From positions 1 through 64,000 of the forward strand of contig NZ_JABASS010000004.1 of assembly GCF_016107545.1 (NCBI RefSeq): DNA of 64,000 bases. Direction: 5' to 3'. Below, piece after piece: positions 35,954 to 51,500 of this stretch (position 1 is its first letter; every line of letters begins with the position of its first letter). The translations under genes were made by a program, and so were the position numbers. Source of the stretch: Psychrobacter namhaensis. GTDB lineage: Bacteria; Pseudomonadota; Gammaproteobacteria; Pseudomonadales; Moraxellaceae. Under the pieces are notes generated by a model that saw nothing but the letters and a program-made list of their open reading frames with translations, made no database searches and was not told where the DNA came from.

Positions 35954-36388
35954 ATGAAATCTACTCCCTCCTCCCCTTTGCCGCTGTGGCTAGCAGTCAT
36001 TTTGACCTTAGCGATGGTCATCTTTGTCCGTGAGTCTGCCGTTATTATTTGTCAGTGGGCTGGCATAGAAAAAGCGGCCAACATCGTCGGGCTGGTCGCG
36101 ATGTTCTTTATTTTGATGACGTGGCGACTGCTCAAAGGATTACCGAGCTGGCTGACCCAAGCCAGTAATACCTTATTGGTCGATAGCGGCTTTGCCTTCT
36201 TGCCCGTCTCCGCTGGCGCAGGCTTATTGCTATTTGCTTTAGGTGATGAGCTATGGGGCGTGATGCTAACGATGATCATTAGTACACTCATACCACTTTG
36301 GGGGCTGGCCATACTTGCCAATCGCTGGCTAAATCACGATACGAGTAACGATCACACCACCGTGAACGAGCACAAGGGACAGCTGTGA
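35954..36388 (+). CDS. LrgA/CidA-like membrane protein
   Basis: The product (144 aa) is a four-helix membrane protein. The segment SGFAFLPVSAGAGLLLFALG matches the LrgA/CidA hallmark, and the last helix follows in VMLTMIISTLIPLWGLAIL. The family forms holin-like or transporter complexes with LrgB and modulates murein hydrolase activity or pyruvate export, depending on organism. The start is unsure: ATG at 35954 fits family length, while TTG/ATG codons at 35843 and 35867 precede it, and a TATAAT at 35832-35837 suggests the transcript starts there. Gene order is lrgA-lrgB, 22 bases apart. Confidence 0.75.
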   Translation: MKSTPSSPLPLWLAVILTLAMVIFVRESAVIICQWAGIEKAANIVGLVAMFFILMTWRLLKGLPSWLTQASNTLLVDSGFAFLPVSAGAGLLLFALGDELWGVMLTMIISTLIPLWGLAILANRWLNHDTSNDHTTVNEHKGQL

Positions 36389-36410
36389 GCTGTGTGAATA
36401 AGGAAATCTT

Positions 36411-37100
36411 ATGAGTTTTGATAGTGTGTTTACAGCAACCCTTGCGGCGATATTGTTAACCTTAGCAGCCCATGTGATAGCCCGTGTCTTGGCACGTAAG
36501 CTTTCATGGTTGCCGATGGTCATTACGGCGCTTGTATTGGTCCTCGTGTTTTTATTCATTCTGCAATGGGATTACAATCACTATTACGGTGTGGCCAAGC
36601 CTGTATTTGATCATCTATTAGGATACGTCACTGTACTACTAGCAGTACCGCTGGCCGCGATGAATTTTAAAGGGCTACCCATCAAAAAACTCACGTTAAT
36701 CGTCGCGCTTGCCAGTGTCGTCGGCGCGTTATTGCCGATGTCATTGGCTTATCTGTTTTCGTTAAGTCATGACACGATCCTAGCCTTTGCTACCCGTTCA
36801 GTGACGACACCCATTGGCCTGAGTGTGGCAGATTTGATTAAGGCCCCACTAGCAATGGCAAACTTAATTATTATTGTCTCAGGACTACTGGGAGGAAGTT
36901 TGGCGCGCTTCTTATTTCGCGGTATCGATGATGATCGCGCTAAGGGCCTCGCCCTTGGCTTGGCCGCTCACGCTTTTGGCACCGTAGAAGCATGGCAGAT
37001 TAGTCACACTGCTGGGCGTTATGCGGCGTTTGGACTGGCAGTCAATGGACTAGTCACCGCTGTCTGGGTACCGATTTTTATCAGTGTGCTTAGTCATTAA
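36411..37100 (+). CDS. LrgB/CidB-like membrane protein
   Basis: This 229-aa protein has about seven hydrophobic helices and the LrgB blocks RSVTTPIGLSVADLI and ALGLAAHAFGTVEAWQ. It is the partner of the LrgA-like protein upstream and presumably forms a membrane complex with it. The start ATG follows AAGGAAATCTT. No LytTR-type regulator is adjacent, so its control differs from Staphylococcus systems. Confidence 0.85.
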   Translation: MSFDSVFTATLAAILLTLAAHVIARVLARKLSWLPMVITALVLVLVFLFILQWDYNHYYGVAKPVFDHLLGYVTVLLAVPLAAMNFKGLPIKKLTLIVALASVVGALLPMSLAYLFSLSHDTILAFATRSVTTPIGLSVADLIKAPLAMANLIIIVSGLLGGSLARFLFRGIDDDRAKGLALGLAAHAFGTVEAWQISHTAGRYAAFGLAVNGLVTAVWVPIFISVLSH

Positions 37101-37496
37101 GCACGCTATATCATTAGACTAACGTGGCGTCTTGGCCTTTGAGACGCCCCATTTGCTCTGTTTTTTGTACTACCACTGTTTAAATGTGCACAAGGTTTTA
37201 TTGTGTTATAAAGGTCGAGTGAGTGACTCACACAATGGAAGGGAACGCCATAGCGTATTGATTTATCTAACGTTATTTTGGCATTTGTCTGCGTCAAAAA
37301 ATTATTATATGTTATAGTAAATAACTATTATTTTTTGTATCTATTGCAAGTGGTTTTAGTTAGCCGTGGTTTTTGCGAGATCATCATAGCTGTTATGGCT
37401 ATAAAGTCCTGCGAACCCGATAACCGCTTAAACGCGCAAAACGACGCGCTTATAGGCAAAGCAATTTGCTATTACTCGATAAAAAGTGATAACCCT
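37101..37496. other. Spacer between lrgB and the transglycosylase gene
   Basis: No gene or terminator was found. The frame of the downstream gene remains open back to 37278, but that part is AT-rich and has no signal-peptide logic. A loose T/A-rich promoter-like region (TTATAGTAAATAAC near 37312) occurs. Confidence 0.3.
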
Positions 37497-38309
37497 ATGA
37501 TGAACGTTGCAACTTTAGTTACTCGCTGCATGTCTCCTATTTTACTAACCGCCGTTGCCCTATCTAGCTTACCCATTGCCGCTCAAGCGGGAAATATGTA
37601 CATCTATAAAGATAAAGGCGGACAAGTCCTACTAACTAATGTCAATCCAAGTGGCAACTTTGATAAATTTACCAAAAAAGTAAAAGTGACTTACTACAAA
37701 GACTCTAAGATGTATGACGGCAGTAGTAGCAGTAATAACTACGGTAGCAGCTCTGCTAGCAGCAGTGGTAGTCGTAACGCTTATGACAACTATATTCGCG
37801 CCTCTGCCAACCGCCATGGCGTCGACCCTGCCCTTATGAAGGCAATGATGCATACTGAGTCAGCATTTAATCCAAATGCACGCTCGCCCGTCGGAGCGCA
37901 AGGTCTGATGCAGCTGATGCCAGCTACGGCTCGCCGCTTTAATGTAAGCAACCCGTGGAACCCTGCTGACAATATTGAAGGCTCAGCCAAATACATCGCT
38001 TGGCTCATGCGCCGTTTCAACAACAATATCGAACATGCAGTCGCCGGTTATAACGCTGGCGAAGGCAATGTCGATAAGTACGGTGGCATTCCCCCTTTTA
38101 AAGAAACGCGTAACTACGTCCAAAGAGTCATGAGCCGCTACCATAGCTTATATAAGAATGATGCAGGGCTTGCTGGTGCTAGTATGAGTGCTAGCAATCA
38201 AATGACTAATGCGAATACCACAAGCGGTGGGCTGCAAAATGTCAGCTACGGCACCAGCAGTAACAATAACGCCAGTTATAGCAATTCAGCCTACGCCGCA
38301 TTACGCTAA
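37497..38309 (+). CDS. Exported lytic transglycosylase with DUF4124 domain
   Basis: This 270-aa protein has a signal peptide (ILLTAVALSSLPIAAQA) and then DUF4124 (YIYKDKGGQVLLTN). A Ser-rich spacer leads to an SLT domain of about 120 residues: catalytic Glu in MMHTESAFNPNA, GAQGLMQLMPATARRF and AVAGYNAGEGNVDK. It would cleave peptidoglycan between MurNAc and GlcNAc in the periplasm. The C-terminal tail is Ser/Asn-rich. Two ATG codons (37497 and 37500) fit the signal peptide; an upstream ATG at 37395 would place it 34 residues in. Confidence 0.87.
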   Translation: MMNVATLVTRCMSPILLTAVALSSLPIAAQAGNMYIYKDKGGQVLLTNVNPSGNFDKFTKKVKVTYYKDSKMYDGSSSSNNYGSSSASSSGSRNAYDNYIRASANRHGVDPALMKAMMHTESAFNPNARSPVGAQGLMQLMPATARRFNVSNPWNPADNIEGSAKYIAWLMRRFNNNIEHAVAGYNAGEGNVDKYGGIPPFKETRNYVQRVMSRYHSLYKNDAGLAGASMSASNQMTNANTTSGGLQNVSYGTSSNNNASYSNSAYAALR

Positions 38310-38346
38310 TATAAAGACAAAAAGATCAACTAAAAGACCAGACATC

Positions 38347-38378
38347 AAAAAGCCCGTTAATACCTTAACGGGCTTTTT
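38347..38378 (+). terminator. Terminator after the transglycosylase gene
   Basis: AAAAGCCCGTTAA and TTAACGGGCTTTT pair around TACC and end in a T-run; the stem could also terminate tsf from the other side. Confidence 0.92.
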
Positions 38379-38446
38379 GATACTTAAACACCAAACGCTA
38401 CGTGTTAGATAAAAACTTATTTAACACTCACAGTATGGTCTACCGC

Positions 38447-39328
38447 TTACTTGTTAGCGGCTTGAGTGGCAGCAACTTCAGCAGCGAAATCTTCTTGTTT
38501 CTTCTCGATGCCTTCACCAACTTCTAGACGTTTGAAACCAAGTACTTTTACGCCTTCAGATTTTAGTACGTCACCAACTTTTTTCTCGTTGTCCATGACA
38601 TACGGTTGACGTAGTAAAGTTACTTCGTCTAGGTACTTACGCAGACCACCTTCGATCATTTTTTCAACGATGTTGTCAGGCTTACCAGACTCTTTCGCTT
38701 TGGCTTCGATGATGTCTTTTTCGCGTGCTAGTACGTCAGCTGCCACGTCTTCGTCATCAACAGCAACAGGGTTGAATGCAGCAATGTGCATGGCAAGGTT
38801 TTTACCAGTCTCAGCGTCGCCACCTTCATAAGAAACCACAACACCAATACGTAGGCCATGACGGTACGATGCGATGTTAGCGCCTTCTAGCGTTTCAACA
38901 CGGCGGATTTGGATGTTTTCACCGATTTTTTGTACGAGTGACACACGGGCTTCTTCAACAGTTTGGCCATCGCCATAAGGCAATGCAGAGATGGCAGCAA
39001 CGTCAGTTACGTTGTTTTCTAGCGCAAGGTTAGCCACTTTTTCTGCAAAGGCAGTGAAGCTGTCATCTTTTGCTACAAAGTCAGTCTGGCAGTTAACTTC
39101 TAACAAGAATGCTTTGTTGTCGCCTTGAGCAATGATGATAGCGCCGTCAGCTGCGATGTTACCTGCTTTTTTGGCCGCTTTTGCTTGACCAGACTTACGC
39201 AAGTTATCGATGGCAACTTCAACATCACCATTTGATTCTTCTAACGCTTTTTTACATTCCATCATGCCAAGACCAGTACGGTCACGCAATTCTTTTACCA
39301 TTTTGGCAGATACTTTTACTTCTGACAT
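38447..39328 (-). CDS. tsf: Elongation factor Ts
   Basis: EF-Ts (293 aa) is the nucleotide exchange factor of EF-Tu. The N-terminal UBA-like module ([19 protein letters not shown]) and the core block [13 protein letters not shown] are diagnostic. The start has AAGGTAACTCTT upstream. It follows rpsB with a 316-base spacer, the standard rpsB-tsf operon. The C-terminal tail ends in an Ala/Lys-rich segment. pyrH and frr, often downstream, are not present. Confidence 0.97.
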
Positions 39329-39520
39329 AAGAGTTACCTTAGTATAGTTATGTATGGGAGAGCTTAATTTTTACTTGATGTCTTTTTACTGCTCGTTTGC
39401 ATAGTGTCGCCTGTTGTAGTCATGAAAACACTTTTGGTGCTTGTTTAATAGACATTGCGTCTAACAGGCGCCAACATAAGCGACAATACTCGCCTATGAA
39501 CGAGTCGTCCATTAACAACA

Positions 39521-39550
39521 AGGCATGACGAGTAAAACTACATCATGCCT
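39521..39550. other. Hairpin in the rpsB-tsf spacer
   Basis: AGGCATGA and TCATGCCT form an 8-bp stem with a 14-base loop, 95 bases after rpsB on its transcribed strand. There is no clear U-tract. It may attenuate or process the rpsB-tsf transcript. Confidence 0.5.
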
Positions 39551-39644
39551 ATTATAAGCTTATACGCTGTTAACGGCACTGTGGGGATGCCTGATAGCGA
39601 CACTACCAAGGCAACCTGTCCATTATAGCGCTATTTACTGAGTC

Positions 39645-40469
39645 TTATAGATCAGCTTGTGCTTCTGCTGGGTTTTTTACAGCAGGGGCTTCTTCTGGCT
39701 GTTCAATAGCAGCTGGTGCTTCGTCAGTAGCAGCAGGCGCTTGCTCAGCTTTACCGCCAGCTTGAGTCTGTGCGTATTCTTTACCAGCGATGATCGCATC
39801 AGCCATAGAAGTCACATATAAAGTCACAGCACGGATCGCATCATCGTTCGCTGGGATGATGTAATCAACGTTGTCTGGGCTAGAGTTTGTATCAACGATA
39901 CCGATCACTGGGATACCCAAGTTTTTGGCTTCTTTGATAGCGATCGCTTCGTGATCTACGTCTACAACGAAGATTGCGTCAGGTAGGCCGCCCATGTCTT
40001 TGATACCGCCTAGTGAACGCTCAAGTTTTTCCATATCACGAGTACGCTCTAACGCTTCACGCTTGGTTAGCTTCGCGAAAGTACCATCTTCTGCTTGCTT
40101 CTCAAGCTCTTTTAGACGGTTGATTGACTGACGTAGTGTCTTCCAGTTAGTCAACATACCACCTAACCAGCGATGATCAACGTATGGCATGCCAGCGCGA
40201 GCTGCTTGCTCACGAACGATGCCGCTTGCAGCGCGTTTAGTACCAACAAATAATACTTTGTTTTTCTTAGCAGCTAAGCCGTTTACGTAAGTCAATGCTT
40301 CGTTAAACGCTTTTACTGTGTGCTCTAAGTTGATGATGTGAATCTTGTTACGGGCACCGAAGATATATGGACCCATTTTTGGGTTCCAAAAACGTGTTTG
40401 GTGACCAAAGTGAGCGCCGGCTTGTAGTAAGTCGCGCATTTCGATTTTGGTTGGATTCTTTGTAGCCAT
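39645..40469 (-). CDS. rpsB: 30S ribosomal protein S2
   Basis: S2 (274 aa) joins the back of the 30S head-body junction. The family blocks are clear: [34 protein letters not shown] and [20 protein letters not shown]. The C-terminal 40 residues are rich in Ala, Glu and Pro ([13 protein letters not shown]), an extension typical of Moraxellaceae and not present in E. coli (241 aa). The ATG follows AGGATATATTCAC. Confidence 0.97.
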
Positions 40470-40812
40470 GTGAATATATCCTATTGGTTGGGTTATGCCT
40501 CCACATCACAAAAACTGCCTATCTAGCGACACGCATCTGCTACCGGTTCGTTTTTATCAGTAAAGCACTAACGGTTCACAAATTAATCAAGTCGCCAAAC
40601 ACCCAGCAATTTTTTGCCATGATGTGTGTGTCATTGGTTGGTTTAAAAAAGAAGCTATCGTCAGAGGTCAGCAACATACTCACACCTGAACTATAAAGCG
40701 AATTATAAAAATAGCTGCGCTGTATTTTATCACATTATCGATTAAAACCTCCAGCAGTTTATTAGGCGCGTGACAATGCGATAAAAACAAAAGTACAGCC
40801 GTATCAAAAGAC
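40470..40812 (-). other. rpsB leader and downstream spacer
   Basis: The minus strand here carries the rpsB leader. A TATAAT on that strand (40702-40707) may be the -10 box, giving a leader of about 225 bases. S2 controls its own operon through the leader in other gammaproteobacteria, but no consensus fold was checked. The remainder is spacer. Confidence 0.3.
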
Positions 40813-40841
40813 AAAAAAAGCGACACCGCAGCATCGCTTTT
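40813..40841 (-). terminator. Terminator of the CheX-containing operon
   Basis: On the minus strand AAAAGCGA and TCGCTTTT pair around a ten-base loop, followed by TTT. It lies 70 bases after the last gene of the signalling operon. Confidence 0.8.
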
Positions 40842-40911
40842 AATGGTTAGCTTGTTTTTAGACCACTTAACGCTCAACCCTCTCGCTTTGGTTGGCTCAG
40901 CGTACATCAGG

Positions 40912-41361
40912 TTATGTGATACAAATACCAATGACCGCTTTATAGCCACGCCACGTAAATGGGGTGACATAACTTTGGCGATCTTTTGACAAGTAAGACA
41001 CACTTGGTGCCCCCTCAACGATATGAGGCGGCGAGATAATAAACTCTGACCCAAATTCAGTACGAGCATTACCAGAGATGGTATTGGCCATTTCCCCCAA
41101 CAAATCTTTCATCATGGTAATGGAGGAATCAGGCTCGCCCATCACTTTGATGACCTCTCGCAACATCACACTCGGCGCACTCACATACACACAGCCTGCA
41201 AGCGGCCCTGATATCTGGATGATGCCGCTATAGTCATAACCAACTGCACTTTTATTGTTGTTCAAATAAGGGGTGTCAATCGCCACTTCTGAGCCATCAA
41301 TCTGGGCAAAAAATGCGTTAATTGAACTGAGGAACACACCCAATTTTTCTACTTTAACCAT
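40912..41361 (-). CDS. CheX-like phosphatase, second copy
   Basis: This 149-aa protein is a full-length paralogue of the one at 41403-41852. It carries the CheX signature: MKDLLGEMANTISGNARTEF has the Glu-x-x-Asn pair that in CheX dephosphorylates CheY. The rest shows the alternating beta-strand/helix pattern of CheX. It is likely to act on the receiver encoded upstream. There is no CheW, CheA proper, methyl-accepting or flagellar gene nearby. The gap to the first copy is 41 bases. Regulation of a non-motility output is inferred, not shown. Confidence 0.78.
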   Translation of the reverse strand: MVKVEKLGVFLSSINAFFAQIDGSEVAIDTPYLNNNKSAVGYDYSGIIQISGPLAGCVYVSAPSVMLREVIKVMGEPDSSITMMKDLLGEMANTISGNARTEFGSEFIISPPHIVEGAPSVSYLSKDRQSYVTPFTWRGYKAVIGICIT

Positions 41362-41402
41362 AATATATTAGTATCCATCTGTATTACGTGGTGGCAGCAT
41401 CA

Positions 41403-41852
41403 TTAATCCTGCAAACAAACCACAATCTCGCCAACTTGCGAGCGCCAAGTGATGGGGATGATAAAAGAACGCTCGTCGTTCGGCAATACAATGCTTTGCG
41501 GAGAGCCTTTAAACACAAATGGCACAGAGATATGAAACTCTGAACCAAACTCTTTGCGCGCATTACCCGCGATGGTATTGGCCACCTCGCCTGCCAAATC
41601 TATGTAATTGGCCTCACTTTTATCAGTCTCACCCATGCTGTCCAATATAGAAGACAGCAATTGATGGGTTGCCGAAAAATACACCACGCCTTTTTGTCCA
41701 CCTGAGATACCGATCACACCCGTATAGTCATGAACTTTTGGCTGGTTGTTCTCTAACAAGTAAGGGGTATCAGCGACGAGCTCTTCTCCACCGAACTGAT
41801 CAAAATAATGACTGATAATACTTAAAAAAATCTGTAGCTTTTGTTCTTTCAT
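41403..41852 (-). CDS. CheX-like phosphatase, first copy
   Basis: The product (149 aa) has the same fold signature: YIDLAGEVANTIAGNARKEF with the Glu-x-x-Asn catalytic pair, VADTPYLLEN near the start and a conserved FGSEFHISVPFVF block. Similarity to the second copy runs end to end, so the pair arose by gene duplication. Gap to the receiver gene is 30 bases. The two copies differ in the loop after the core, which could give different targets or mutual binding. Confidence 0.78.
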   Translation of the reverse strand: MKEQKLQIFLSIISHYFDQFGGEELVADTPYLLENNQPKVHDYTGVIGISGGQKGVVYFSATHQLLSSILDSMGETDKSEANYIDLAGEVANTIAGNARKEFGSEFHISVPFVFKGSPQSIVLPNDERSFIIPITWRSQVGEIVVCLQD

Positions 41853-41882
41853 AGTGACATCTGCTTTAGTCGATGAATGGTG

Positions 41883-42245
41883 TTAGTCTTGCATCAGCTC
41901 ATACAAAGACTCTACAAGCTCTTCTTCTGAAAAAGGCTTGCATAAAAAGCCGCTGGCACCCAACGACAATGCCTCAATGCCAGTGGCTTTGTCAGACAAG
42001 GCTGACACCACTAAGATACGGACTTCAGGATCAATCGCAATGATTTTTTCAATACATTCAAGTCCATCCATTTGCGGCATGGTCAAGTCCATGGTGATCA
42101 CATCAGGACGATGGATGTTAAACTTTTCGATGGCCTGAACCCCACTGGTGGCCGTGGCCACCAACATAAACTGGCCTGAATCATACGCGCGCTGAATACG
42201 GTTTCTAATAATATTTGAATCATCAACAATCATTAACTTATGCAT
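41883..42245 (-). CDS. CheY-like single-domain response regulator
   Basis: This 120-aa receiver-only protein has the phosphorylation site Asp in VITMDLTMPQMDG, the acidic pair in MIVDDSN, Ser in VVSALSD and Lys in CKPFSEEEL. It has no DNA-binding or output domain, so it must act by protein contact, like CheY. It lies between the CheA-like kinase and the CheX-like pair, giving kinase, receiver and phosphatase in order. Confidence 0.88.
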   Translation of the reverse strand: MHKLMIVDDSNIIRNRIQRAYDSGQFMLVATATSGVQAIEKFNIHRPDVITMDLTMPQMDGLECIEKIIAIDPEVRILVVSALSDKATGIEALSLGASGFLCKPFSEEELVESLYELMQD

Positions 42246-42313
42246 AACTTATCTATTACCTTGAATGAAGGGCTTGTCGTCCTTGACAATGTACCTGCGG
42301 TTTTTAATTTTAA

Positions 42314-44557
42314 TTAAGCTTTCGGTAACGTAATAACAAACCGTGTCATCTGACCCAGCTCGCTATTCACATTCAGCTTGCCATCATAATCTTTTACTTG
42401 CGCTTTAATGATGTCAAGCCCAACACCGCGGCCGCCATCTTCATCTGCGTGTTCTTTGGTAGAGAAACCAGAGGAAAACAGTTGCTTAAGTAAATCACCC
42501 TGACTGAGCTGATTTGCCTCTTCGGCACTAAAACGGCCTTCTTTGCTTAATTTGGTACGGATGCCATCGTAGTTGATACCTTGACCGTCATCTTGCACCA
42601 TCAGCGTAAAATCTGACCCGTTGTCTTTTACTTCCAAATCAATCGTCCCGACCGCGGCCTTCCCAGCAGAGTGACGAGTACTTGGTGTTTCGATACCATG
42701 CACCACCGCATTACGTAGTAGTTGAATACTAATCTCTTTGATCGGCTTGGCAAGATGCGCTGGGATGTCCGCTTGTGTCAGTGTATTACTCTTGAGCTGT
42801 ACTTGCTTACCTTGCCTTGTGGCAATGTCTTTAGCAAAGTCTTTGTAAAAAGACAGCCGATCATCTTCTGCGTCACCGTCCAGATCGATGTCCTGACCAC
42901 CATACGTATCTATACTACCGATTGAGTGGTTTGCTGCCTGACTTTCAGTAACGACCGTTTTTGAGACGCTGTTTTTTACGATGTCGTTATCTGCGGCAAG
43001 CGGTGTTGGTACGTTGGTCGCTTGCGTAGCCGCTGGGGCTGGGGCTGGGGCTGGGGCTGAACGATTGATGCGTTCACCCAAGGTGGCAATGGTATTTGAT
43101 AGACTTAACAAGTCATCTAAATGTACGGCCAATGGCAAGAAATCATTACCCGATAGCTGACCTTGATTTTGCAATGCATGTAGTTTGTCTTCTGCATCTG
43201 AGGCAATCTTGGTAAAGCTGTGCAGTTTTAACGCAGACGCCTCCCCTTTTAGGCTATGCATTTCGCGATAGATGGCTTTTAGCTTACCTTCTAGCTCGTA
43301 TTGTGAACTACCCGGATTTTTTAAGATGTTGTTCATCTTTTCGATGTGCATCTGAGTGTTGGTAATAAACTCGTTGATGATCTTTGGATTCACATTCAAG
43401 ATGGTGGTGAGCATCTCAATCTGCATATCGTTTTGCGACCGCTCTTTTTCTAGGCGCTGCTCTAGATAAACGGCGTCTGACACGTCGTTGACGTTGACCA
43501 AAATACGGGCAATGTCTTTGTTGTCATAAACACGCGAAAACTTAAAATCTAAGAAGCGATTGTTCAGCGCTTTACTGCCAGCGGTGTTGTGGAGCATCAC
43601 TTTATGCAACGGGTTGAGCGAATCCACCAATTTTTCTTTGACTCGGGGGTTATAAAGCTGTTCAATAAACTGCTGTGTGGTTTTTAGGTCTTTATCAGAA
43701 ATACGCCCACGCAAGACATTGGTAAAGTTCTCGCCTGCCAAACGATCAGCACCGATAATGTCGTTGAGTGCGCGAGAATGCTGCTGACCAATATTGAGGT
43801 CTTTATCAAGCAAGAATAGTCCCGTATTGACCGTTTGCATAATCTCTTGCGTTTCGCGACGAGCAGCAAATGCTTCGGCATCCGTCTCCCGTAAGCGGCG
43901 CACAAAGAAGAAAACAAAGATTAAGAAGTACGTAAAGATAGCGGCAACACCCAGCACCTGAATAAGACGAATGGTCGTCGCCTGACGCTCTGCACTATTG
44001 AAGACGTCTTTCGTCAGATTGTCTAACGAATCGTTGATAAACAAACTGGATGTCTTTGCCTGCTCAACCGCTTGCGTCAACGCATCGGCAGAGGGCACCA
44101 TGACGTTGTCAGCATCTTTAAGATACGTTTGAATTTTAGGTTCTAGCGCTTGCCACTGCTCATTGGCGGCAGCAACGTTGGCTTGCGCCTTGCTATCAAT
44201 GTTTGGCAGATCATAAGTATTGCCTTCAGCATCAGTGATCGTGCCACCTTGCTCAATAGCAGTCATAGAGCTGGTAATCAGCGCCGTGTTTTGCTCCAAG
44301 CGGCTCAGCACTCGTTGTATGTGTGGGGATTTGGTATCCTCACCATAACTACTGTCTAAGTCAAAGAGATCCTTGATTACCGCTTGCGCGCTATTAGCGA
44401 CTTGGTTGGTTTGATCAATCAGCGCCGTGTTTCTTTCTAATAAATTTGAGGTATAAAACGTAAACGCTAGCAAAGCACCAATCAGCGATAAAAATAGGGC
44501 AATTGAAACAATTAGACCTTGATAGCGCTTATTGTCAACATGAGGTGTGGTTGCCAT
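42314..44557 (-). CDS. Membrane CheA-like kinase with PAS and Hpt domains
   Basis: This 747-aa protein is anchored by two helices (about 14-35 and 198-219) flanking a helical periplasmic domain of 160 residues. A PAS-like domain (about 235-360) leads to an Hpt domain: YREMHSLKGEASALKL has the phospho-acceptor His at about 434. After a Pro/Ala linker (about 500-515) comes a CheA-type ATPase: IQLLRNAVVHGIE (N box), VQDDGQGINYDG, GFSTKEHADEDGGRGVGLDII. The CheW-binding domain of chemotaxis CheA is missing. The DHp dimerisation helix is not obvious. It probably phosphorylates the downstream CheY-like protein through its own Hpt. It is 12 bases from the lipoprotein gene, which implies that the lipoprotein is its sensor or ligand partner. 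Confidence 0.85.
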   Translation of the reverse strand: MATTPHVDNKRYQGLIVSIALFLSLIGALLAFTFYTSNLLERNTALIDQTNQVANSAQAVIKDLFDLDSSYGEDTKSPHIQRVLSRLEQNTALITSSMTAIEQGGTITDAEGNTYDLPNIDSKAQANVAAANEQWQALEPKIQTYLKDADNVMVPSADALTQAVEQAKTSSLFINDSLDNLTKDVFNSAERQATTIRLIQVLGVAAIFTYFLIFVFFFVRRLRETDAEAFAARRETQEIMQTVNTGLFLLDKDLNIGQQHSRALNDIIGADRLAGENFTNVLRGRISDKDLKTTQQFIEQLYNPRVKEKLVDSLNPLHKVMLHNTAGSKALNNRFLDFKFSRVYDNKDIARILVNVNDVSDAVYLEQRLEKERSQNDMQIEMLTTILNVNPKIINEFITNTQMHIEKMNNILKNPGSSQYELEGKLKAIYREMHSLKGEASALKLHSFTKIASDAEDKLHALQNQGQLSGNDFLPLAVHLDDLLSLSNTIATLGERINRSAPAPAPAPAATQATNVPTPLAADNDIVKNSVSKTVVTESQAANHSIGSIDTYGGQDIDLDGDAEDDRLSFYKDFAKDIATRQGKQVQLKSNTLTQADIPAHLAKPIKEISIQLLRNAVVHGIETPSTRHSAGKAAVGTIDLEVKDNGSDFTLMVQDDGQGINYDGIRTKLSKEGRFSAEEANQLSQGDLLKQLFSSGFSTKEHADEDGGRGVGLDIIKAQVKDYDGKLNVNSELGQMTRFVITLPKA
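43032..43058. repeat. Hexanucleotide tandem repeat in the kinase linker
   Basis: Four perfect GCTGGG units and a partial fifth encode alternating Pro and Ala in the linker after the Hpt domain. Copy number can change without a frameshift. Confidence 0.85.
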
Positions 44558-44569
44558 CTTTAGAACTCC

Positions 44570-45448
44570 TTAGTTCACTTGCTTAGTATTGGTGGCAGAA
44601 GTGCTCTTGTCAGCAGAGGTATCTACACCCAACCAGCGCTCTTCAATCTCTTTAAACGTCCCTTTTGCTTTAAGCTTCACAATACCCTCGTCCACTTTAT
44701 TAATGAGCTCGTTATTGCCCTTGGCCATCAAGATCACTTGCTGCGCTGATGGGTTATCCTCTCCCTCATAAGGCACGATGGTGACATCATATTCTGGATG
44801 GTTTTTTGCGGTGAACTGTAAGATCGGTAAGTCGTGCAAAATGACATCGACTTTGCCTTGCATCAAATCTTCATACAACAAAAAAGCCGTGCTACGAGTC
44901 GTCATTTGGCTATATTTGCCCATGGCATTGAGCTGATCTTCTTGTTTTGAGCCTTCCATAGCAGCGACGTGCATACCTTGCAAATCTTCTATGCCATTGA
45001 TGGTCACATCACTTTTTGCGTACATGATAGAGGATGGATTAAAAAAGTAAGGCGCGGATAATCCGTATTTTTCGGCGCGGTCATCTTTATAAGAAATACC
45101 TGAGATTGCTAAATCGCGACCTCCTGATGCCACACTATCAAACATGTTTTGCCACGTTTCTTTGTAAAACTCGACTTTGAACCCTTGTTCTTCACCAATC
45201 GCACGAATTGAATCGATATCAATGCCTTGCATATTGCCGTAGTCATCTTGGAACGAAAACGGAGGCATCGTGCCTGTGGTCGCCACTTTTACAGTGGGCG
45301 CGGTATCAGGCAACTGACTAACAAAACTGTCTTTTTTTTCTGTGACTGGGGTTCCAGTCGCACTGGCATTTTCTTGGGTGGCAGAGTTACCACAGCCAAA
45401 TAAGCCCACACTCAACACCATTGGTAACACGCGATATAACTGCACCAT
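44570..45448 (-). CDS. Solute-binding lipoprotein, first gene of the signalling operon
   Basis: The product (292 aa) has a lipoprotein signal with the lipobox LFGC (Cys 19). The mature protein is a family 3 extracellular solute-binding protein: ATTGTMPPFSFQDDYGNMQG, WQNMFDSVASGGRDLAISG, and KAKGTFKEIEERWLG. In transport this family binds polar amino acids. No permease or ATPase gene is adjacent; the kinase gene follows after 12 bases. It is likely a ligand-sensing subunit, and both ligand and membrane partner are unproven. Confidence 0.85.
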   Translation of the reverse strand: MVQLYRVLPMVLSVGLFGCGNSATQENASATGTPVTEKKDSFVSQLPDTAPTVKVATTGTMPPFSFQDDYGNMQGIDIDSIRAIGEEQGFKVEFYKETWQNMFDSVASGGRDLAISGISYKDDRAEKYGLSAPYFFNPSSIMYAKSDVTINGIEDLQGMHVAAMEGSKQEDQLNAMGKYSQMTTRSTAFLLYEDLMQGKVDVILHDLPILQFTAKNHPEYDVTIVPYEGEDNPSAQQVILMAKGNNELINKVDEGIVKLKAKGTFKEIEERWLGVDTSADKSTSATNTKQVN

Positions 45449-45794
45449 AATCTACCCTTTAAACTTAACGTTGTTGTACATATTAAGGAATGACAATCTA
45501 GCAAGGTTAGGTAATATTTCTACAATATTTTCTTACAGAAAGTTACGTTCGATCATACTTGGGTAAATTTGCGATTGCAATAATTATGTTTAGTTATTAC
45601 ATACAATTTATTATAGGTAGGCCAGACTGCGATAACGCTTCATATCTATAGGTAGCTGTTTATAAAGGAGACTTGGCTATTAGGGAGCGCTGCTAGCGTT
45701 TTTAAAAGAAACCGACGGTAGTTTGGGCTAATAAAGTAGTCCATATATTTTTAGGAGGGCGTTGGTACCCAGTCAAAAGAATGAAAGGACCATA
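45449..45794. other. Spacer upstream of the signalling operon
   Basis: No gene was found. The promoter of the signalling operon (minus strand) should lie here, but no clear consensus is seen. An AGGAGG at 45752-45757 lacks a start codon at proper spacing. The region is AT-rich. Confidence 0.3.
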
Positions 45795-45831
45795 AAAAAG
45801 TACTTATACATAGGACGTATAAGTACTTTTT
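45795..45831. terminator. Terminator after the Bcr/CflA gene
   Basis: AAAAAGTACTTATAC and GTATAAGTACTTTTT form a 15-bp stem and can act on the minus-strand exporter transcript. Confidence 0.92.
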
Positions 45832-45864
45832 AGAATGTGGTGTAAGAAGCGTAATACTTAGCGC

Positions 45865-47124
45865 TTACTCAGCATCATCAAGATTTAAATTACGGTCTAT
45901 TTGCCAGATTAAAAAGGAACCAAGGCTCATGAGAGCAAACATAGCTATACCTATCTTCAGTACGGGGTTGACCGGAAATAGATTTAGTAATAAACCACCA
46001 AAAATACCAACTGAAAACATAAGCGAGCCTTGTAGCGCACTTGCCATACCAGCACGGCGTTTTTGGAAGGCTAACGCAATGGCAGAGGCGTTCGGCTGTG
46101 TCAAACCCAAACCTGCGATACAAAAGAAAATACAGGCAAGTACCAAGGGCAGCCAGGCATCCGTACCCAAAAAGAGGCCGACCATAAACAACACACCCGC
46201 AGAAATAACCTGCATCATGGCACCAAAGCGTAAAATACTTAAAATACGAAAGCGGTTGGTCAGCCATTGGTTCATCTGTGTCAGACCCACAAAGCCTGCA
46301 GCATTCATCCCAAACAGCCAACCAAAGTGTGTCGCTGAGACGCCATAGGTATCCATAATCAGCTCAGAGGCCGAGCTGATGTAGACAAACATGGCCCCCA
46401 TCAACAGGCCACCGCCAATCGCCGGATAATTAAAAGTGGGGTCTTTTAATAAGTCCCAATACTGACTGAGCACTTCTTTGGCAGGGCGCACATTACGGTT
46501 CTCTTCAGTCAATGTCTCAAAAAAGAAAAATTTAGTGAGTAATAGGTTGAGCGTACCAAAGGCTGCCAAGAACCAGAAAATAGAGTGCCAACTAAAAAAC
46601 TGTAAAAATAGAGCACCAAGCGATGGGGCTAATATGGGGGCTAAGCCCATCACCAAAATCATAATAGAAAATGCTTTGGCGGTTTGTTTGGCTGTCAGGC
46701 GATCACGAATGGCGGCACGTGTAACCACTGCGCCCACACAAGCGCCAAGTGCTTGCATGGTTCGTCCAAAAAACAACACATATTCATTATTAGTGGTCGC
46801 ACAAATAACGGAAGCGATGACATACAGTGTCATACCAATATATAAGGGCTTAACGCGGCCAACACGGTCACTAAAGGGGCCGTAAAACAGCTGACCAAAC
46901 ACCAATCCCAAAAAATACGCTGGTACAGAGTTGGCCATAAAGGCCGTGGAGACGCCAAAGTCATCGGCCATTGATGGTAGTGCTGGCAGATACATATCGA
47001 TAGATAATGGTCCTACCGCTACGATAAGCCCAAGCATCATAATCCATGCGACAGGCAAATCAGCAGAACGCACACGCTCAGAGGCGACGGGTTTATTGGG
47101 GAGGGTAGATTTTGGAGCAGACAT
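45865..47124 (-). CDS. Bcr/CflA-family drug exporter
   Basis: This 419-aa major facilitator protein has 12 predicted helices. The family block VGPLSIDMYLPALPSMADDF opens helix 1; RVGRVKPLYIG follows helix 2 in the A motif and LGACVGAVVTRAAIRD lies in helix 4. It is likely a proton-driven multidrug exporter of the Bcr/CflA subgroup. It is monocistronic. The basic N-terminal tail is about 30 residues long. Confidence 0.92.
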   Translation of the reverse strand: MSAPKSTLPNKPVASERVRSADLPVAWIMMLGLIVAVGPLSIDMYLPALPSMADDFGVSTAFMANSVPAYFLGLVFGQLFYGPFSDRVGRVKPLYIGMTLYVIASVICATTNNEYVLFFGRTMQALGACVGAVVTRAAIRDRLTAKQTAKAFSIMILVMGLAPILAPSLGALFLQFFSWHSIFWFLAAFGTLNLLLTKFFFFETLTEENRNVRPAKEVLSQYWDLLKDPTFNYPAIGGGLLMGAMFVYISSASELIMDTYGVSATHFGWLFGMNAAGFVGLTQMNQWLTNRFRILSILRFGAMMQVISAGVLFMVGLFLGTDAWLPLVLACIFFCIAGLGLTQPNASAIALAFQKRRAGMASALQGSLMFSVGIFGGLLLNLFPVNPVLKIGIAMFALMSLGSFLIWQIDRNLNLDDAE

Positions 47125-47190
47125 ATTTAGACCGTTTTATATAGTGGTTATTATTTTATTATTCATGTTGTCTTTTTCGTTAGCGGTTAT

Positions 47191-47364
47191 TAGGGCGTGT
47201 CCTCATATTAAAAATGGTGATAAAAATGAGATAAATTGCTGGCAAACAAGGAAAAGAGCGCAGATAATATCGAGATATTAACCAGCTATTTGACGCTGTT
47301 TGACAAAATTTAGCCATTTTTAGTCCATTTAGATGACTATCGATTGAACTGAGGACATGCCCTA
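47191..47364. mobile_element. Probable MITE with 13-bp inverted ends
   Basis: GGGCGTGTCCTCA at the left end and TGAGGACATGCCC at the right end are inverted and differ at one base. Both are flanked by TA, consistent with duplication of a TA target. The 174-base element contains no transposase; the long minus-strand frame across it resembles no protein. TA duplication occurs in IS630-type and some IS5-type elements, so a relative of these would move it. Confidence 0.75.
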
Positions 47365-47575
47365 GTACAGAAATCAACGGCTATTCACAACAGCCGTGCA
47401 CCCCTGTATGCATCTGTGCAAACGGACAATGTTATGACAGGGTTATATTGTACTAGCGTCGCTTATACTTCAATAGTGGCATGACGTTAATAAAACAAAT
47501 CTCAACCACTAAACACCATCAGAAAAATGCCTCAAAATAGGGCCAAGCGTTTAATGCCACTCTTGTTAGGATCGA

Positions 47576-48388
47576 TTAACGGAACTGACGTTTGCCAAAT
47601 ACCGTACTGGCTTGCTTGGCTTTTCTGAGCGCCAGCTTACGGTTGCGACCGAGCATCATTTTTAGCTGCCATACTTTCTCTTTATATAAAGTAGCCTTAG
47701 GCTGCTGATGCATGGCATTGATGATGCGCTTACTCGCCAGCACAGCATCCGGAGAACGCTCTGCAAATTCAGCAGCGAGCTTTTGCGCCTGCTCAAGCGG
47801 CGTCTCACTACAATGACTGATAAGACCCAGCTCGCAGCCTTTACTCGCATCAATGATACGTGCACTCATGGCCAGCTCTTTTAAGGTGTCTTCTCGCACC
47901 ACCCCAAACGCAGATTGGGTCAGCCCCATATCCGGTACTAAGCCCCACTTGGCTTCCATGATAGACAGTTTACAATCAGGATGACTGACTCGTACATCAC
48001 ACGCTAATGCCAGCTGTAGGCCTGCACCAATACAGTAACCTTCTAGTACCGCAATGACGGGCACAGGCACATCGCGCCAAACGAGACAGACTCGTTGAAA
48101 TGAGCTCTGCCATGGTTTTATAAGCTCCCACACGGCAAATGCTTGGTTTTTTGGATGGTTTAAATCACCCAAGTCAATGCCCGCACAAAAGGTCGCTTCC
48201 GCCCCATTTAAAATGACCGCTCGTATTGTTTTGTCTTTGCTAATACGACCTGCCACTGCAATCAGCTCATTTACTACTTGAAAGCTCATGGCGTTTTTTT
48301 TGTGCGGACGATTTAGGGTAACCGTTAATATGTTATCAGTGATACTAACTTGTAATGTCTCATACTGGTAAGTGGCAATCGCGTTCAT
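47576..48388 (-). CDS. Crotonase family protein, possible dienoyl-CoA isomerase
   Basis: The product (270 aa) has the crotonase fold: oxyanion-hole segments FCAGIDLGDL and GYCIGAGLQLALACD, then the second region MEAKWGLVPDMGLTQ. Hydratases have Glu in the first block, where this protein has Gln. The second block retains Glu and, eight residues on, Asp, the spacing of catalytic residues in delta3,5-delta2,4-dienoyl-CoA isomerase. It is therefore more likely an isomerase than a hydratase. Start ATG 48388 follows AAGGATTGTT; the frame runs upstream to 48478 with a spurious hydrophobic extension. No beta-oxidation gene is adjacent. Confidence 0.8.
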   Translation of the reverse strand: MNAIATYQYETLQVSITDNILTVTLNRPHKKNAMSFQVVNELIAVAGRISKDKTIRAVILNGAEATFCAGIDLGDLNHPKNQAFAVWELIKPWQSSFQRVCLVWRDVPVPVIAVLEGYCIGAGLQLALACDVRVSHPDCKLSIMEAKWGLVPDMGLTQSAFGVVREDTLKELAMSARIIDASKGCELGLISHCSETPLEQAQKLAAEFAERSPDAVLASKRIINAMHQQPKATLYKEKVWQLKMMLGRNRKLALRKAKQASTVFGKRQFR

Positions 48389-48590
48389 AACAATCCTTAT
48401 TAAAAATAAACATAGTGTTGATAGCAGCAATATTAGCAGGCTTACCCCTATTCTACCGTAGCAATAACTGACTGCCACGGTACGCCCGACAAGACCGCTC
48501 TAAAATATCTATAAGATTCTGTCCACCATTTATCCGCAAATCGATTAAGAGCCCTTAACTTTTGAGCCACTGTCTTACCTACTATCTCGT

Positions 48591-51500
48591 TTATATCATC
48601 TTCCACGTCATATCGTTTTCACTTAAACGGTGATAATTCAGCTGAGGATAGGCGGACAGATCTAGCGCTTGTAAGTTGTTTAATGCGGTTAGCAGTGCCT
48701 CATAGTAAGGCTCGAGCATAGCAAACTGTGCGGGGGTGGTATGCTGGATATTTAACAAACACTTGTCTTCTAAGTCTTGACTGGCCTGACGTAACTGCGG
48801 TACCCCAGTATAACGACTACCGCCCAATATACGATGGGCAATTTGCGCCAGTGTATTACGATCACGCGCGATCCACGCTTGGGTTAGGGCTTGCTTCTCA
48901 TCGTTGATCGTATCAAGCATCATAATGATAAGCTTGGCTGCTAGGTCAGGTTTGTTCGCCGACCGCGTAAGCGCATCTTGCCAGTCTAAAATGGCTAAAG
49001 TATCGTTAGCAGATCCCCCTACATTACCGCTGCTTGCATAACGATGGCTGCCTAAATCCTTTCTTTCTTGCTCAGATGCTTGTGAGTCCGTATGGGCTGT
49101 CATCGTATTATAAGCACTGGCTGCAGGGTTTTTCGGTGGGTTTAAGAGTGAGATGGTTCCCTGATTTTGCAAACGTAAACTCTCATAGCGCGGCTGAGTG
49201 TCACGCGGGGTTTCTCGTCTGTAGTCCTCACGAGGCTGACTATCACGCAAATAGTCATCCCGAATTTTTTTCAATGATAAAGGCCGCGTAATTTTTTGCT
49301 GACTTACCCTATCAGAGGCACTACTGCGATTGCTCTCCTCCCCTTTCACCAGTGGATAAGCCATCATGGTAGAGTCTGCAGGCCAACTTGAATACTTTTC
49401 AGCCTCTGCATTTTGCAAGTCCATAGTGTGCAAATCATTCTCTGGTGCGTCATTAGCTTGTAAGTCAACGCTATGTAGACTGGAATCAGGCAACACCGTT
49501 AGTTGAGGGGTGGTCGTTGTGCGTCCCAGCCATTTTTGCAGCACTTGCAGTAACTGAGGCTGGCTAATCGGCTTACCCACATAATCATTGATGCCGCTTG
49601 CGATCAGCTTGTCACGCTCATCGGCCAAGCCATGAGCGGTCAAGGCAATGATGGGGATTCGGCCATCATCGTGCTCAATATTGCGAATTTGTCTTGCGGC
49701 TTCATGGCCTGACATGCGCGGCATTTGAATGTCCATAAAGATTAAGTCAATATTGTTTTTATCCGGACTAGGGCCTTTATCGTCAAAACCTGCCTCTTCA
49801 TAAAGTGCGCTGTTTGATTTCTTGTTTATTTCATCGCGCGTTTCAGCTTTAGAGATTTGGGTTTTATTCGATAGACTCTGCTTGTCATTTTTCGTGGTTT
49901 TGAAGTTTTTGGTTTGTTGTTTACTGATGATCTCGATGGCATCAAACCCACTACTCGCCGTAATCACCTGAATGCCAAGCTCGCTGAGCAAAGCATCGAG
50001 CACCAGTAAGTTGGGTAAATGGTCATCGACTGCCAGCACAGTCACGCCTGTCCAACGTGGTTCTTGCAGATTTTTTGGCACGCTGCGGTTTTGTGTATCG
50101 AGCATGGCGTAGAGTTGTCTTTTATCTAGTGGCTCATACAGTACATTGGCATGATAACGATTTAGTAGCGCTTGATCGGCGGCCACTTGATAACCAAATA
50201 CCGCAAGCTTGCCTTGATAATGGAGACGAATCTGTTTGAGTAGCGCCATCATATCGTCTTGAGTATCATCATCAACGATGACCCAATCCCAATAGTTGCC
50301 ACGCTCCTTTAATGACTCAAGCACCCCTGGCAGTGAGTTGGCTTGCGTCAATTTAATCGGTAAGTACTGCAAGCTGGCTTTGAGCACTTGGATGGACGCG
50401 GTATGATTGATCCAAACCAACACGTTGAACTCGTCGGTCTCACTTGCCAGTGGTGCCAAGACTGGCAGCTCAATCGTCTGACCAGTGGCGGCTTCTAACA
50501 CATCGACATGTGCTGGCATGCGAAACCAAAAAGTGGCGCCTTGATTGGCAATATTTTCTTGGGCATTGTCATGAAACCCAATATCACCGCCCATTAGCCG
50601 GGTTAATTGCTTAGAGATGACCAGACCCAGCCCTGTGCCACCATATTGGCGAGTGATGGATGGATCACCTTGGCTAAAGCTTTGAAACAGCATTTTTTGA
50701 TCGGCCAGAGAAATCCCTTTACCGCTGTCTTGCACACTGATCATCAAGTAATTGTCTCGGTGATCGTCTAAGCTGACGCGCACCACCACATCGCCGCTGT
50801 CGGTAAACTTAATGGCATTGCCGACGATGTTGGTCAGTACTTGTTTGAGGCGCAAGGCATCACCGTTGATGCGCATCGGTACGTCGTTATAAAACAGCAC
50901 CGCCATACGTAGACCTTTTTCTGCAGCCACTGGGGACAGCATATCGACTACATCGTAAATGGTGTCATAGAGATCAAACTCATGGCGATCGAGTACCAAT
51001 TTGCCGGCTTCTATTTTAGAGAAATCCAAAACATCATTCACGAGTGCGAGTAAGTGAGCTGAGGATTTGCGGATGGTCTGCACATATAAGTCTTGTTCAG
51101 GGTTTAATTCACCATGACGGGCCAGCAAATTAATAAAGCCATCAATACTGTTTAGCGGCGTGCGCAGCTCATGGCTAATATTGGCCAAAAACGCAGACTT
51201 GGCTTGGCTGGTCGAGATTGCCGCATCACGCGCATTACGGATAGAGATGTTCTGCATCTCCATCTCATCAAAAGCCAGGCGCAAATCATCTTCGGTTTGC
51301 TCAGCATGATCCTTGAGATCCTGAAAACTTCTGTGCAAGCGGCGCAACGTTTTGACCAAATCTTGCTGTAATAAGTTAAGCTCACCATCGGACTCAACCG
51401 GAATCGGCTGATACAGATTATCGACATGGGTGCGTTGCAGCTGTAAGCGTAGCTCATAGATTGGAGCGATCCAGCGTTTTGAATAGATGTTTAAACTTAG

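Follow-up and report, generated by a model that had tools for sequence, protein, structure and literature searches.

What does a bacterium do with a CheA-like kinase, a CheY-like receiver, and two CheX-type proteins that are encoded behind a binding lipoprotein? We consider this question for a five-gene operon in Psychrobacter namhaensis, from a cold-loving genus; the window analyzed is a stretch of 64,000 nucleotides, and coordinates below are those of the window unless a locus is named. The operon consists of the following features:

44570..45448, minus strand: binding lipoprotein gene, type A, 292 aa (SBP_bac_3, E 7.7e-34)
42314..44557, minus strand: membrane sensor histidine kinase gene, 747 aa (Hpt and HATPase_c, both above cut-off)
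41883..42245, minus strand: single-domain, CheY-like receiver gene, 120 aa (Response_reg, E 2.5e-28)
41403..41852, minus strand: CheX 1 gene (PF13690, E 2.7e-20), orthologous to the lone CheX seen in other families
40912..41361, minus strand: CheX 2 gene, the Moraxellaceae duplicate (PF13690, E 6e-19)
40816..40841, minus strand: intrinsic-terminator-like hairpin of 11 pairs, then a T run

An earlier note had described five same-strand genes closed by a terminator, and this layout holds: the genes are separated by gaps of 12, 68, 30, and 41 bases, and the hairpin (40841-40816) was found about 71 bases past the last stop of the operon. An MFS transporter gene flanks the operon on one side and rpsB-tsf on the other. 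Searching each protein against Pfam, as the note had proposed, assigned the family 3 substrate-binding domain SBP_bac_3 to the lipoprotein (116.7 bits), Hpt (31.1) and HATPase_c (57.2) to the kinase, Response_reg (98.9) to the receiver, and CheX to each of the last two proteins (72.6 and 68.3, where the cut-off is 27 bits)—all matches lie above their cut-offs. A promoter scan was uninformative, with 14 sites against 11.4 expected. Our targeted literature searches turned up no description of the operon, and among the papers searched nothing combines Psychrobacter, CheX, and a histidine kinase.

The kinase is the central component, and its AlphaFold model (mean pLDDT 80) runs from a first transmembrane helix (TM1) through a periplasmic helical bundle, a long TM2/signaling helix, a PAS-like domain, a coiled coil, a five-helix Hpt, and a disordered linker to the ATPase. 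Its parts, with the evidence for each, are as follows:

43973..44449, minus strand: periplasmic four-helix bundle, kinase residues 37-195 (structural matches; exchange pattern)
43484..43822, minus strand: PAS-like domain, kinase residues 246-358 (Foldseek PAS/LOV matches)
43058..43387, minus strand: P1-type Hpt, kinase residues 391-500, with phospho-acceptor His434 (T. maritima CheA P1)
42869..43054, minus strand: disordered hypervariable linker, kinase residues 502-563 (pLDDT under 50)
42317..42868, minus strand: CheA P4-type ATPase, kinase residues 564-747 (CheA P4 structures)

Pfam and structural matches agree with the earlier description of a kinase with a membrane anchor, PAS, Hpt, and CheA-type ATPase, but no CheW domain. 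The Hpt matches P1 of T. maritima CheA (1tqg) at Z 15.4, and the ATPase matches CheA P4 structures at Z 22.8 and 31% identity (phmmer E 4.8e-26); H434 and the ATP-site residues N616, D657, G658, G709, G711, and G713 are invariant across 51 homologues. The place of CheA P3 is occupied by the linker, which shows 9-59% identity among homologues. A P3 dimerization domain is absent—the model has no two-helix hairpin before the start of P4 at residue 564—and alignments of the kinase to full CheA chains begin at P4. There is likewise no Pfam match to a CheW/P5 domain, and P4 forms the C-terminal end of the protein. CheA is described as having no sensor domain, and according to a survey every CheA sequence has HATPase_c, the dimerization domain, and CheW (PMC10542144). 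As P3 and CheW are missing here, the kinase fails the definition of CheA; it is CheA-derived and probably uses CheA chemistry, and we assume that it dimerizes through its transmembrane and helical parts. The system thus shares with CheA (PMC10542144) a P1-type Hpt with its catalytic His, a P4-type ATPase, and a CheY-like receiver with a CheX partner, but differs in that the kinase brings a membrane sensor and a PAS domain of its own and is without P3, P5/CheW, or an MCP/CheW partner.

PAS/LOV structures match the PAS-like domain with a Foldseek E of about 4e-4 and Z of about 11; Pfam finds no PAS domain in the window kinase, and the assignment is supported by weak PAS matches in the kinases of relatives together with the predicted fold. 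The best fold match to the periplasmic bundle is PilJ (8wdf, Z 14.6), followed by LytS from its complex with XylFII (13.8) and McpN (13.6), with NarQ close behind, though these scores sit near the background expected for any helical bundle. PF13675 (PilJ) has no Pfam match in the window kinase, and is matched by the kinases of two relatives (L026 and L169).

Downstream of the kinase, Pfam and the gene calls bear out a receiver that has no output domain and is followed by two CheX-type proteins. The receiver contains the catalytic Asp/Asp/Asp, Ser, and Lys, and each of these residues (D8, D9, D53, S81, and K103) is conserved at 97% or more among 95 homologues. It also varies less than any other protein of the operon: its mean distance is 0.047, compared with 0.25 for P4 and 0.35 for the lipoprotein, and this conservation points to a conserved partner. 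CheX-type phosphatases insert a Glu/Asn pair into the receiver active site (PMC3035606); the corresponding ExxN motif is kept in both proteins as GEVAN and GEMAN (E89 and N92 in CheX 1), and GExxN occurs in every aligned homologue. Both CheX proteins are accordingly predicted receiver phosphatases with intact catalytic residues. In a tree, CheX 1 falls among the CheX proteins that other families have as single copies, and CheX 2 forms a separate Moraxellaceae clade (CX2). CheX 2 stands alone in three Moraxella-type loci (L091, L094, and L178), and CheX 1 stands alone in one Psychrobacter whose kinase gene is broken. By its placement, CheX 2 arose through duplication in Moraxellaceae, and lineages can lose either copy. 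The proposal of two phosphatases thus stands for the domains and catalytic residues, and gives way where it implies a fixed pair. As in Thermotoga and Borrelia, the CheX proteins have the PF13690 domain, the ExxN pair, and a CheY-like genetic partner; here, however, they lie outside a chemotaxis gene set and are tandem paralogues in most Moraxellaceae loci.

How widely is this arrangement kept? The closest matches are all from Psychrobacter, with Moraxella next, and a comparison of gene order across Moraxellaceae, another check that the note had suggested, found kinase-receiver-CheX-CheX kept in the 73 loci examined. CheX 1 has a match in 73 of 91 sampled genus genomes; in G019 only a weak fragment is found. 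In ten genomes the operon is absent with both flanks kept, the MFS gene leading straight into rpsB over 312-434 bases. A CheX 2 fragment remains between the MFS gene and rpsB in G019, indicating direct loss of the operon there. Outside Moraxellaceae, a PAS-Hpt profile match, in some cases weak, was found in 15 of the 369 class genomes, and the core occurs in scattered gammaproteobacterial families, usually with a single CheX and without a binding protein. The kinase-receiver-CheX order recurs in these other families with genes that overlap or nearly touch (often by 4-8-base overlaps), and its recurrence across loci and families argues that the grouping is not chance. Judged from gene order, the conserved core is kinase-receiver-CheX, which the lipoprotein accompanies at some loci and not at others. 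We tested co-occurrence across genomes family by family and surveyed neighbors mainly by inspection, running a minority against domain libraries; by inspection, nothing recurs beside the core outside Moraxellaceae except nitrate genes, at three loci, and on this survey we reject a conserved neighbor as the output.

Several individual loci depart from the common layout. At L035:7775-9674 (G002) a 1.9-kb element interrupts the kinase gene around residue 591; it encodes a TnpB-like protein and a 139-aa TnpA-looking frame (IS200/IS605 type). L217:4846-13431 holds two tandem kinase-receiver-CheX sets, with an extra CheX in the upstream set and a protein of about 300 aa with no Pfam match after each set. 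At L224:1470-7881 a weaker relative of the kinase shares an operon with an MCP signaling domain, a STAS protein, a receiver, and two CheX-domain proteins—this operon resembles a different branch of CheX systems.

Whether the operon serves motility can be addressed from the remainder of the genome. CheW and MCP domains are found only on contig C22, in a Pil-Chp-like cluster with its own 2312-aa ChpA-like kinase, so no MCP or CheW is encoded with the operon kinase; CheX is found at the five-gene operon only, and no FliM was found in the genome. With CheW and MCP confined to C22 and FliM missing, the operon does not supply an array with its kinase set and is not a flagellar system, and we reject a flagellar link. 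The earlier description of the pathway as detached from motility is therefore upheld for flagella and the Che array; for type IV pili it is not, as the receiver could act there. The phosphorylated receiver might bind the pilus motor or a Pil-Chp component and so provide a second input to the pili, which would make this a motility pathway. The CheW-, MCP-, and ChpA-like genes of the C22 cluster, the resemblance of the kinase bundle to PilJ, and the suitability of a protein-binding role for a CheY-like output are all in keeping with such a link. However, the operon and the Pil-Chp genes are on different contigs, no pilus gene was recognized at the examined loci, and a PilJ-like fold is no pointer to pili because NarX and NarQ share it; we consider a pilus pathway unlikely.

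We turn now to the input. The lipoprotein has a signal peptide, an LFGC lipobox, and a linker of ~35 aa, and no ABC permease or ATPase gene was recognized beside it among the ORFs of window positions 36000-50000. Its closest solved structures are amino-acid-binding proteins. Lipoproteins of types A and B, the two forms met across Psychrobacter loci, also have amino-acid-binding proteins as best matches, with type B equally near the ancestors of cyclohexadienyl dehydratase; these matches make an amino acid the likeliest ligand. Two or three tandem binding lipoproteins precede a single kinase at four loci (L087:3758-7000, L070:4990-6977, L033:4241-6270, and L073:4418-6971), and the arrays of L087 and L070 contain both types. 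A second periplasmic fragment was looked for beside these tandem arrays and none was found.

The new result of this comparison is that the lipoprotein and the periplasmic bundle form one exchangeable input cassette, as sequence comparison across Psychrobacter shows, set upon a fixed PAS-Hpt-P4, receiver, and CheX. Three types can be told apart by TM1 and the periplasmic part of the kinase, whose PAS, Hpt, and P4 are alike throughout. Type A bundles (48 loci) occur with type A lipoproteins and type B bundles (5 loci) with type B lipoproteins; type C bundles (11 loci) have an adjacent lipoprotein in 0 of 11. Bundle and lipoprotein types agree in all 52 tested loci that have an adjacent lipoprotein (in one type A locus, L047, our script called no lipoprotein frame, and a 68% match lies at the expected place). 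The exchange can be followed in DNA: L044 and L071 have flanks 89-100% identical on both sides, mostly 97-100%, and L056 and L062 have a similar left flank and a more variable right side, within the kinase. Between about -800 and +550 relative to the kinase start, the members of each pair are only about 40-65% identical, and the breakpoints lie within the linker of the lipoprotein and immediately ahead of TM2. At least nine type changes are found on a tree built from the fixed genes. With flanking genes corrected for, the distance between lipoproteins still follows that between bundles (partial r 0.89); the corresponding values are -0.11 to 0.05 for PAS, Hpt, P4, and the receiver and 0.11 for CheX 1. 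Within type A only, the correlation is 0.52 against 0.04 to 0.15. Adjacent DNA could co-vary without contact, so that the exchange pattern supports a pairing of lipoprotein and bundle but is not proof of it, and there is a counter-case—three loci from Moraxella and related genomes (L086, L091, and L176) have no lipoprotein next to a bundle that shares about 45% identity with type A. The label "ligand-gated" is retained for the CheA-type kinase, which is probably ligand-linked, and qualified for the lipoprotein, which belongs to an exchangeable cassette and not to a fixed system.

Distant relatives suggest a different input for the same core. The nitrate N-box of McpN-type domains has the consensus [IVL][ND]xAGxQRML[ST]Q (PMC6381276), and exact copies occur in 11 distant kinases from 10 families; the motif is absent from every Moraxellaceae kinase examined, that of the window included. 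Nitrate genes adjoin three of these 11 kinases: napA-napB-napC and a narQ-like kinase at L166, nrtB and nrtCD at L171, and narK and nirB at L213. With the N-box and the adjoining genes taken together, the core in these relatives very probably reports nitrate and probably senses it directly. From the distribution, nitrate may have been the ancestral input, in which case Psychrobacter would have been rewired from it. The likeness to NarX/NarQ and McpN (PF13675) is one of probable bundle fold, with the N-box and nitrate neighbors in distant relatives only, whereas the window bundle has neither an N-box nor a Pfam PilJ match and its kinase has a CheA-type catalytic part.

These relatives also bear on the possibility that the Psychrobacter bundle senses directly, in the manner of NarX, NarQ, and McpN, leaving the lipoprotein as a linked scavenger or transport protein with no part in signaling. 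Type C kinases and all examined loci outside Moraxellaceae do without an adjacent lipoprotein, and the N-box relatives probably bind nitrate themselves. However, no permease or ATPase gene lies nearby, bundle and lipoprotein types constantly agree, and type A and B bundles lack the N-box, which leads us to regard this explanation as distinctly unlikely.

On the output side, the receiver might control a Ser/Thr protein kinase pathway. At L209:10113-11357 (G834) a receiver-Ser/Thr-kinase fusion lies 4 bases past CheX in the same operon and is a candidate output there, and a PP2C-kinase gene abuts CheX in L213. Corynebacterium GlnH-GlnX-PknG offers a similar cascade, in which an amino-acid-binding lipoprotein signals to a membrane four-helix protein and on to a Ser/Thr kinase, although GlnX itself has no kinase domain (PMC9769921). 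Against this, L209 is the one clear co-operonic case, and the PP2C-kinase of the P. namhaensis genome occurs in 29 of 69 operon-bearing relatives and 11 of 18 operon-lacking ones (Fisher p 0.19), so that we see no positive association across the 87 relatives; a Ser/Thr kinase as obligate output is rejected, and control of such a pathway in general seems very unlikely. The PP2C-Ser/Thr-kinase fusion itself (L227:88-2211, G000 contig C11) lies beside a nirB-like oxidoreductase gene and is present in 46 of 100 genus genomes. That the receiver and CheX have no output of their own and are a mere phosphate sink or a relic of a lost chemotaxis system would suit the missing output domain, the lack of an adjacent effector gene, and the clean absence of the operon from ten relatives that retain both flanks, but it is most improbable given that the low variability of the receiver relative to P4 and its kept catalytic residues speak for continued selection on function and partner.

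We return, with moderate confidence, to a stand-alone sensor pathway made of CheA, CheY, and CheX parts, for which family knowledge and the comparisons above suggest the following mechanism. A small molecule, probably an amino acid, would bind to the lipoprotein, which would dock on the kinase dimer at its periplasmic four-helix bundle, much as TorT engages TorS and XylFII engages LytS. From there the signal would travel down the helix through the PAS domain and set the phosphorylation by P4 of His434 on the tethered P1/Hpt, from which the phosphoryl group would pass to Asp53 of the receiver; this anatomy suits a single His-Asp transfer step that starts at the kinase's own Hpt, and not a multi-step relay, which qualifies the phosphorelay proposed earlier. 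The phosphorylated receiver would bind its conserved target until the Glu/Asn pair of CheX hydrolyzed the aspartyl phosphate, which would make for a fast, reversible response that needs neither MCPs nor CheW. The shared core is probably a direct nitrate sensor in other families; the Psychrobacter input would differ in acting through a binding protein.

To our knowledge, none of the kinases TorS, LytS, and LuxQ is of CheA type or has CheX as a partner. Periplasmic binding proteins act on sensor kinases in TorT-TorS, XylFII-LytS, and LuxP-LuxQ (PMC6321045), and the proposal that a binding protein acts on the periplasmic domain of a kinase is the same, with the difference that the pairing here is read from exchange patterns only.

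A broader proposal, on which we are evenly divided, is that these operons represent a portable, array-free class of CheA-derived transmembrane kinases with their own CheY and CheX across Gammaproteobacteria, in which the Psychrobacter input is an allelic cassette exchanged between lineages and the ancestral input is nitrate. If true, a recurrent kinase with CheA catalysis, its own sensor, CheY, and CheX would represent the phosphochemistry of chemotaxis in a simple, array-free form. The natural swaps of A, B, and C inputs in near-identical backgrounds would serve as ready-made chimeras for the recognition between binding protein and bundle—they also bear on how sensors shift between direct nitrate binding and the use of a binding protein.
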